DNA from: Cryoendolithus antarcticus
Lineage: Eukaryota; Ascomycota; Dothideomycetes; Cladosporiales; Cladosporiaceae
Assembly: GCA_002077065.1 (NCBI GenBank)
Contig: NAJO01000046.1
Coordinates: 62,001-126,000 of the forward strand
Length of the DNA: 64,000 bases
Direction of reading: 5' to 3'
The translations under genes were made by a program, and so were the position numbers. Under the pieces are notes generated by a model. It did not search any database and was not told where the DNA came from. It worked only from the letters and a program-made list of their open reading frames with translations. Each line of letters begins with the position of its first letter. Within the stretch, counting starts at the first letter, position 1. This document shows, piece by piece, positions 41,118-44,846 of the stretch.

Positions 41118-44100
41118 ATGGCTCGGTTCTCCAGAGAGCGTCGCCCTCAGCGGCCGGCGCGCAACATGTCCTCCTTGGTGAGGACGCTGCTGGTCTGCGC
41201 TATGATTATCGCCCCGTTCCTCATGTTCAGCTTGATCCCCACGGTTCGCGCAGATGATGTGCAGGAGCCTGTCAAGGACTCATCGGCTGTTCAAGGACCT
41301 GGTAAGTCTACTCTTGGGATGGTGTCAAGGGGGCGGAGTCTGGTCATGTAGAGCACGACTCCGGCGCTCTTGCGATTGAAGTAGTATTCGGGCATGAGCA
41401 GCTGACATGCTCTCCTCTCAGTCATAGGTATTGATCTTGGAACCACCTACTCTTGCGTCGGCATAATGAAGGGCGGCAAAGTCGAAATTCTCGTCAACGA
41501 TCAGGGCAACCGGATCACGCCTTCATGGGTGGCATGGAACGATGAAGAGCGACTTGTGGGAGATGCGGCAAAGAACCAGTTTGCGTCAAATCCCGAGCGG
41601 ACTATCTTTGACATCAAGCGTCTTATCGGGCGCAAGTTCAGCGACCGTGATTTACAAAAGGACATCAAGCATTTCCCCTTCAAGGTCGTGGACAAGGCTG
41701 GACAGCCACGTGTCCAAGTCGAGGTGAACGGGTGAGTCGAGACACGTACTCCGGCTTTTCTGAGACCATTACTGACAACGTTGAAGCGCACAGAAGACAT
41801 TCACCCCCGAGGAGGTCTCCGCCATGGTTTTGGGCAAAATGAAGGAAGTCGCTGAGCAATACCTCGGCGAGAAGGTCACGAACGCAGTCGTCACTGTCCC
41901 GGCCTACTTCAATGACGCTCAGCGCGCTGCCACCAAGGATGCAGGCACAATCGCCGGTCTCAATGTCCTTCGTGTTGTTAACGAGCCCACCGCGGCCGCT
42001 CTCGCCTATGGCCTCGACAAGACCGACCAGGAGCGCCAGATTATCGTCTACGATCTCGGTGGAGGAACCTTCGATGTTTCCATCTTGACTGTCGATCAGG
42101 GTGTATTCGAGGTCCAGGCCACCGCCGGTGACACCCATCTCGGTGGCGAGGATTTCGATCAGCGCGTGGTGGAGTTCTTCACCAAGTCTTACAACAAGAA
42201 GCACGACGTGGACATCCGAAAAAACTCGAAGACGATGTCCAAGTTGAAGCGTGAGGTCGAGAAGGCCAAGCGCACTCTCTCCAGCCAAATGAGCACCAAG
42301 ATCGAAATCGAGGCCTTCCACGAGGGCAACGACTTCTCCGAGACTCTCACTCGCGCCAAGTTCGAGGAGCTGAATAATGACCTGTTCAAGAAGACTCTCA
42401 AGCCGGTCGAGCAGGTGCTCAAGGACGCCAAGCTGAAAAAGAGCGACATCGATGACATCGTTCTTGTCGGTGGTTCTACTCGTATCCCCAAGGTCCAGGC
42501 TATGCTCGAGGAGTACTTCGGGAAGAAGGCATCCAAGGGTATCAACCCTGATGAGGCTGTCGCTTTCGGTGCCGCCGTTCAGGGTGGTGTTCTCTCTGGT
42601 GAGGAAGAGGCTAAGGATGTCGTCCTCATGGATGTTAACCCGCTCACTCTTGGTATCGAGACTACTGGTGGTGTTATGACCCAGCTCATCAAGCGCGGAA
42701 CTACTATCCCTACCAAGAAGAGCCAGATCTTCTCCACGGCCGCCGACAACCAGCCAGTGGTACTGATTCAGGTGTTCGAGGGCGAACGTACTATGACTAA
42801 GGATAAGTGAGTAAACCCCCCCAATCCCCCATTTCTACCCAAGTTACGTCGGAGCTGCAAATGCACATTGCACCAAGCTGGTTCAACACTCGCTGCTTGC
42901 TTGGTGCAATGTGGCTGCCACCACGGATCTTCCAATCTCCCGGATCGCCACTGCTGCGATCGAAGCTGCCTGCCCCTTCGTCCTCTGGGCCATGTACAGT
43001 CGCCATTGCAGCTCATGGGACTTGCGACTGCCTGGCACTGATTTGACCGGGTCAATACTGGCGCTGCTCTTGCCATGGTACCACTGGTGGATTGGTATAA
43101 GGCTTTTCCTCTCCGATTCCTCGATGCTTCAGTCAGATACCGCACCCAGGGATGGCACCACGATCGCAGTACAAGGCCAACAACATCCAAGCGCTCATCT
43201 TGCACATCACCTGGCTCTGCCTCAATGTCTCTGACTATGTCAACCCTCGCTTCCCGGCAGTTTTTCCTTCTTTTGACCAGCTGGCTGCCATCTTTCCCAA
43301 GCTTGGTCTCACCTTCGTTGACGGCCTCTTCGACGTCGTCCAATCTGCAAACCCACCAAGCATCAAGTGGTTCCTGTCGCTCTCAACCTTTCATCCAATA
43401 CGAGCTTGGGGCATCTGTGTCCTCGTTTTACGCAAAGGCGGCCGCTTCAAGATCTATATCGGCTCTGGCACCTCAACTGTCAACAATGGCGTTCGATACC
43501 GCATCCTGCAACACAAGGGTTCCCGAGTTGAGCCTGGTAACGTCAGGACTGCGAAGCGACAATGCTACAAGCTGGTCCACTGCTCGCTACTCGCCTGGTG
43601 CAATGTTCCTACTGCCACAGATGTACCAGTCTTTCGGACCGCCATCGTTGCCATCGAAGCTGCCTTCTCCTTCATCTTCTGGCCCATGTACAGTCGCACT
43701 ACGAAATACGGCTTCCCCGATGGTCCCTGGACTCGGACGGACTTTGCGTGGGAGGGCCTCTGCAGTCACAACCCACTCATCGAAGGTAATGACAGGGGCA
43801 ATGAAAGACTCGATCTCAGCCCCGCGAGCCTCCGGCAGATCAACGATGCCGCCACGCAAAGACGCCAGAGCGTCAGGAATGCGTGGGACCGCAAAGCTCG
43901 AGCAAAGAAGTCACCGAAGTACCTCGAGGCTCGCCGTGCAAGGGCCAGGAAGTACCAACCCATCGCCTCTGCCAAAGCCAAGCTTCAGGTCGAGAAGAAG
44001 AGATATCACTGCGCTCCCTGCAATTAGTCTGGCTTAGGAAGCGCTCAACTCAAGCGACATCTTGGTTCACCTCGCCACGCAGATGTCATCGCTGACGGCT

Positions 44101-44846
44101 GTGGACTATACTGTGAGCCGTGCAAATATCTGGCTAGAGACCGCTCTGTCCTTCGCCGTCATCGCTCGAGCGCTCTCCATGACCGCCGGTGTGCAGCCGC
44201 GGCTGCAGCAGCGGCTTGACCTCAGCGCATGGTAGCAAGCTACGCGTTACACATTTGGAAGACTTCACACTGACATTCACTTCACAGCAACAATCTCGGT
44301 AAATTCGAGCTTACTGGTATTCCTCCTGCTCCTCGTGGCCAGCCCCAGATTGAGGTCACTTTCGAGCTTGACGCGAACGGTATTCTCCGCGTCAGCGCCA
44401 ACGACAAGGCTACTGGCAAGGCTGAGTCCATCACGATCACCAACGACAAGGGCCGCCTCAGCGCCGAAGAGATTGAGCGCATGGTCGCTGATGCCGAGAA
44501 GTACGCCGATGAGGACAAGGCCACGCGCGAGCGTATCGAATCTCGCAATGGCCTCGAGAACTACGCCTTCAGCCTCAAGAACCAGGTCAACGATGATGAG
44601 GGTCTCGGCGGTAAGATCGACGAGGACGACAAGGAGGCCCTCCTCGAGGCTGTCAAGGAGGCGCAGGACTGGCTTGAGGAGAACGCCGCTTCGGCTGACG
44701 CCGCGGATTTCGATGAGCAGAAGCAGAAGCTCAGCGATGTTGCGTACCCGATCACAAGCAAACTCTACGGCGGGAGCGAGGGTGGTGCTGGTGGCATGCC
44801 CGATTACGGAGGTGATGATGAGCCATCCGGTCATGACGAGTTGTAG
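41118..44846 (+). CDS. KAR2: ER Hsp70 chaperone BiP/Kar2
   Basis: ER-lumen Hsp70 for translocation, folding and the unfolded protein response. Exons: 41118-41301, 41422-41731, 41787-42806 and 44288-44846. The signal peptide is in exon 1 ([20 protein letters not shown], cleavage after VRA). The nucleotide-binding domain is intact: [50 protein letters not shown] and [18 protein letters not shown]. The linker and substrate domain contain [20 protein letters not shown], and [20 protein letters not shown] continues in exon 4. The C-terminus ends [10 protein letters not shown], the ER retrieval signal. Introns 1 and 2 are 120 and 55 nt. Intron 3 is 1481 nt and interrupts the conserved [13 protein letters not shown] motif, one of the most invariant points of Hsp70. 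Splicing exactly 42807-44287 restores the protein. Confidence 0.97.
42848..43030 (+). repeat. partial, decayed copy of the GIY-YIG core
   Basis: Reads [20 protein letters not shown], then [20 protein letters not shown] and YSR. The full copy at about 43569-43695 reads [40 protein letters not shown] and YSR. DNA identity is visible over roughly 130 bp. The fragment lacks the GIY and YIG motifs and the zinc fingers and has no start codon of its own. It marks an earlier or tandem copy of the same element. Confidence 0.75.
43152..44219 (+). pseudogene. GIY-YIG endonuclease with two C2H2 zinc fingers, in-frame TAG at 44025-44027
   Basis: 291 residues from ATG 43152 to TAG. The nuclease core shows [20 protein letters not shown]: the GIY position is GIC (87-89) and YIG is intact (102-104). 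Then come R115/R117 and H121 ([11 protein letters not shown]), and E169 in [16 protein letters not shown], which corresponds to the catalytic Glu before the FW pair in I-TevI-like enzymes. [10 protein letters not shown] and a basic helical linker follow. After residue 286 a C2H2 finger starts, CAPC. The TAG falls two residues after the second Cys. In the same frame beyond it come [13 protein letters not shown], then a second finger starting [17 protein letters not shown] and ending in His; both fit C-x2-C-x12-H-x5-H. The frame ends at TGA 44217-44219. Either a recent pseudogene or read through. Replacement of the first motif Tyr by Cys may also impair activity. Confidence 0.75.

Follow-up and report, generated by a model that had tools for sequence, protein, structure and literature searches.

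We report a family of open reading frames (ORFs) with a predicted GIY-YIG nuclease fold that reside in introns of conserved nuclear genes of Cryoendolithus antarcticus. One of them lies in the KAR2/BiP gene within a 64,000-nucleotide stretch of contig NAJO01000046.1 (the window; the coordinates in the list below are positions in it). Seven host genes have such an intron. In each, the ORF is present in one genomic copy of the gene and absent from the other. We think it likely that the seven introns are nuclear spliceosomal homing introns in a cellular genome, akin to the viral "shintrons," and that the KAR2 ORF is a decayed member of the family. The features of the KAR2 locus are as follows.

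41785 to 42806, + strand, KAR2/BiP coding part 5' of the intron; its top PDB matches are BiP.
42807 to 44287, + strand, ORF-bearing KAR2 intron, 1481 bp, GTGAGT...CACAG, phase 2; not present in the gene's second copy, which lies on contig C66.
42843 to 43003, + strand, remnant of a second GIY-YIG ORF copy; over 161 bp its DNA is 76% identical to 43537-43697.
43043 to 43055, no strand assigned, palindromic motif TTGACCGGGTCAA, located by motif search.
43152 to 44027, + strand, GIY-YIG-like ORF, 291 aa, ATG to TAG, a decayed copy according to its reading frame and fold comparison.
43401 to 43769, + strand, predicted GIY-YIG fold region, approximately residues 84-206, with GIC..YIG, Arg117, Glu169 and His206, from fold comparison and alignment.
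44010 to 44078, + strand, C2H2 finger 1, broken by a TAG at 44025-44027, from sequence reading.
44112 to 44180, + strand, C2H2 finger 2 (zf-met), PF12874, E 3.5e-4.
44270 to 44274, + strand, branch-point-like CTGAC, 18 nt from the intron 3' end.
44288 to 44846, + strand, KAR2/BiP coding part 3' of the intron, from sequence reading and comparison with the second copy.

An earlier note on this DNA placed a 1481-bp intron at 42807-44287, and those boundaries hold. The ends are GT...AG, a branch-point-like CTGAC is present, and removal restores the conserved protein, with 32 residues at the exon join identical to the intron-less second copy. The 55-bp intron that the note placed upstream is also visible in the sequence. 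The ORF contains both segments that had been singled out, the YIG segment with downstream Arg and His and the Glu segment, and His121 is present beside GIC...YIG, Arg117 and Glu169. The two C-terminal C2H2 fingers described in the note do share one frame, but the ORF itself stops at the TAG inside finger 1, leaving finger 2 beyond it; past the TAG the same frame runs to 44219 through the rest of finger 1 and then finger 2. The remnant region (42839-43006) has a 55% protein match to the main ORF. The KAR2 copy, judged from its sequence, is probably no longer active, because finger 1 is interrupted by the TAG and a second copy survives as a remnant at the 5' side.

The assignment to the GIY-YIG group is upheld by conserved residues in the family and by fold comparison of predicted models, which found a GIY-YIG fold. 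Members share an N-terminal helical part, the GIY-YIG domain, a helical linker and C-terminal C2H2 fingers. Among 63 aligned members, Arg117 and Glu169 occur in all 63, Tyr102 in 62, and Tyr89 and Gly104 in 61 each; we take the two Tyr, Gly, Arg and Glu to be the active-site residues. The first Tyr of GIY is Cys89 in the KAR2 copy.

Related ORFs were found both in the same genome (47 Mb, 149 contigs) and in other fungi, by the kind of search for further copies that the earlier note had proposed. The KAR2 ORF matches seven other genome loci (E 2e-41 to 2e-17, 32-41% identical), and therefore is not a chance reading frame. At least nine family loci are present. This count leaves out the remnant in the KAR2 intron and a match on contig C132 (E 0.07) that was too weak. 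Seven are in introns, of KAR2 (C91), pyruvate carboxylase (PYC) and clathrin heavy chain (both C13), EF-1alpha (C68), ATP synthase beta (ATP2; C123), PEP carboxykinase (PCK; C73) and a URA2-like CPSase gene (C60). The other two, on C84 (L002/L009) and C24 (L004/L010), are apparently free-standing between genes. A protein search gave at least 76 proteins, including two C. antarcticus gene models; one flea zinc-finger protein among the matches was taken as a chance finger match. Other sources are Meristemomyces, Elasticomyces, Friedmanniomyces, Neocucurbitaria, Coniosporium, Aureobasidium, Tothia and the Sordariomycete Cephalotrichum. No relative turned up in IMG/VR when a single member (P0004) served as the query. 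Gene predictors have fused several of the related ORFs to clathrin, aconitase, PMT1 or an Hsp70, giving chimeric gene models, and in two aconitase chimeras of different origin the joint is at nearly the same residue, these being gene-model joints and not observed splice sites. In the tree, the C. antarcticus copies fall among copies from other sources; its URA2 row is mis-framed and to be ignored, its KAR2 branch is long, its bootstrap support is not settled, and tree and copy counts both come from searches that give lower bounds.

For the most part the host introns read as spliceosomal. Four of the seven (KAR2, clathrin, ATP2 and PCK, with the PCK intron end taken as 5860) are directly canonical, with GT...AG ends, and their removal would restore the conserved protein. 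The EF-1alpha intron (L013:3330-4968, C68) reads as a twin intron with a 59-nt intron nested in the donor; taking out the internal intron first creates GTAAGC and restores the protein. This reading replaces a first impression of a GG donor. The remaining two have one-base acceptor lesions, TTTCG|GC in pyruvate carboxylase (L014:7322-7324) and TTACGG|CCC in URA2 (L016). These are either assembly errors or real damage, and second copies of both genes could cover their function. Branch points can be read in all seven introns. Rfam gave no group I or II ribozyme match for the introns. In the KAR2 intron, Pfam detected no reverse transcriptase domain in the main ORF or in four further frames, a check for Penelope-like elements.

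All seven host genes have a close second copy in the assembly, which therefore represents either a duplicated or hybrid genome or two close genomes mixed together; the copies are second genomic copies and not proven alleles. The ORF is absent from the second copy in 7/7 genes. In KAR2, EF-1alpha, clathrin and PCK the second copy is contiguous at the site and has no intron; no extra exon bases are found at these four copies. The PCK second copy has one TAG within its match. The second copy of ATP2 carries another intron, of 53 bp, which lies 4 nt downstream of the site, that of pyruvate carboxylase a 79-bp ORF-less intron whose first eight bases are the same, and that of URA2 a 56-bp ORF-less intron 1 nt from the site.

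Two other readings meet this evidence. If the ORFs were nested genes or dead insertions without any mobility, the stop and the lost Tyr of the KAR2 copy would be accounted for; nine related loci, presence or absence of the ORF in 7/7 pairs and the placement of C. antarcticus copies among those of other sources make this very improbable. Alternatively, the ORF alone could be mobile and enter existing introns, with the intron-less second copies reflecting secondary loss, for example by cDNA recombination. The short introns kept by the second copies of pyruvate carboxylase and URA2, which coincide with the site or lie 1 nt from it, favor this reading. It is nevertheless unlikely, as it requires five separate losses, given that four second copies are intron-less and the ATP2 intron differs and lies 4 nt away.

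A 13-bp palindrome, TTGACCSGGTCAA, marks all seven ORF-bearing introns. When up to one mismatch is tolerated, they contain 12 sites, compared with a shuffle mean of 0.015. The motif was first spotted by eye, so that the test is post hoc, but the odds are still extreme. With a tolerance of two mismatches in PCK, six of the seven introns carry a second site. Genome-wide there are 11 exact sites, against 1 for the reversed control: five in ORF-bearing introns, two flanking a LAGLIDADG/intein-like ORF, one in an aconitase intron, two inside or next to recombinase-like ORFs and one within a long open frame. The distance from the intron 5' end to the first motif is 42-530 nt, and that from the last motif to the 3' end is 40-1232 nt. 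In EF-1alpha one motif is 1 nt before the ATG and another directly after the stop; a 2-mismatch site precedes an ATG by 1 nt in PCK, and a 1-mismatch site precedes one by 3 nt in pyruvate carboxylase. The C24 member has no palindrome at two or fewer mismatches within 9.9 kb, and the C84 member has only one 2-mismatch site in that range, approximately 3.5 kb from the ORF. With one mismatch allowed, the genome has 65 sites and the control 13. Of these, 20 outside the elements were inspected. Many of them are in long open frames or repeats, and the overall excess is therefore no evidence for the elements; one (L036) is in a recombinase-like ORF.

These data bear on a third reading, in which a DNA element linked to TTGACCSGGTCAA behaves as a transposon-like introner: it would insert into genes, bring splice sites along and so make new introns, with the nuclease as its transposase and not as a homing enzyme. 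The motif statistics for the seven introns, the occupation of seven different sites, and a single exact motif in a 54-bp aconitase intron all suit such an element. We nonetheless doubt it. At least three motif copies lie within ORFs (ATP2, PYC and URA2), so there is no clean end, and on the same ground the motif was ruled out as a terminal repeat; its distances from the intron ends vary, and the four intron-less copies show no extra exon bases.

The palindrome also occurs by other genes. A free-standing ORF, P0078 (L030:3474-6668; G000:C13:363973-367167), has an exact TTGACCSGGTCAA at both ends, one of which overlaps the stop codon. From its motifs we take it to be a LAGLIDADG, intein/HO-like ORF; its match to PF05204 is weak (E 0.0011, below the family cut-off). 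The aconitase intron (L033:4776-4829, C74) with its lone exact TTGACCGGGTCAA is possibly an empty site or a scar. At L031, L032, L035 and L036 the palindrome, with 0-1 mismatches, is near or inside recombinase-like ORFs, presumably related tyrosine recombinases by their appearance; those of L031 and L032 have no Pfam match.

We favor homing of the whole intron. Close to the insertion site, and with the fingers as guide, the enzyme would cut an allele that lacks the intron or the ORF, and repair of the break would copy the ORF-bearing intron into the cut. The spliceosome would then remove the intron from the host mRNA, so that the host survives, and once fresh empty alleles run out the ORF would decay. 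DNA cleavage, target sites, splicing, homing and movement of the intron rather than the ORF alone are what we infer from the evidence above. The link to homing made in the earlier note gains support overall from the fold comparison, the related ORFs elsewhere and the intron-less second KAR2 copy, with the homing step itself still conjectural. Gain rather than loss at the sites is suggested by the tree placement and by codon change in clathrin, which peaks at the insertion (37/60 vs 127/480). Pyruvate carboxylase has a diverged tract of approximately 250 bp 3' of its intron, but a similar dip at +528 to +628 means that the tract is not unique. Exon divergence gradients are described for mitochondrial mobile introns in the available text of PMC5378118, and the causes proposed there are coconversion, with the donor coming from outside, or error-prone repair.

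Two results weigh against the homing interpretation. The near-site excess of change pooled over all seven genes is absent (p 0.26, coconversion test), and the KAR2 ORF, compared with GIY-YIG profiles as the earlier note had proposed, matched no Pfam family at E≤10. The GIY-YIG Pfam profile is not listed at E≤0.1 for P0004 and for P0017, an intact Elasticomyces ORF; one Pfam scan gives the best 25 of 136 families, and GIY-YIG matches in other members are possible. NCBIfam gave no GIY-YIG match for P0004, P0017 or the pyruvate carboxylase copy, nor did a PDB sequence search with the KAR2 ORF give any match.

The earlier note knew of no described case, and our literature search, with few subscription papers or bioRxiv preprints within reach, found none for a cellular nuclear gene. 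There is, however, a viral precedent in the mirusvirus spliceosomal homing introns reported in 2025 (PMC12768974, available text). According to that text, these introns likewise hold GIY-YIG genes, have spliceosomal donor and acceptor sites, show target-gene preference and bear no ribozyme signature, but they sit in viral genomes, whereas the fungal introns are in nuclear housekeeping genes, their ORFs have C2H2 fingers and the same genome offers a second copy for comparison. I-TevI-type GIY-YIG homing endonucleases are found in group I introns, unlike the fungal ORFs, whose host introns read as spliceosomal. Introners occur as many near-identical copies without a nuclease ORF, and the nine divergent ORF loci described here differ from that pattern. 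Fungal introners and introner-like elements are also mobile spliceosomal introns (PMC4457414, PMC9860276, available text).

The origin and movement of new spliceosomal introns is a long-standing question. Second gene copies without the inserted ORF, and often without the whole intron, suggest that ordinary introns can be spread by homing enzymes. The same gene with and without a nuclease-bearing intron in one cellular genome provides natural, directly testable cut-site pairs. The finding takes the shintron idea from viruses into nuclear housekeeping genes, and ORF-bearing introns explain some chimeric fungal gene models. The enzymes might also serve as sequence-specific nucleases. We see an even balance for and against the wider proposal that ordinary spliceosomal introns in cellular nuclear genes are gained and spread horizontally through the action of homing endonucleases, the whole intron, splice sites and ORF together, homing into intron-less alleles of essential genes, and that several unrelated selfish genes may share a control or movement system marked by the 13-bp palindrome. 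If true, this would mean that nuclear introns can be gained site-specifically by an active mechanism.
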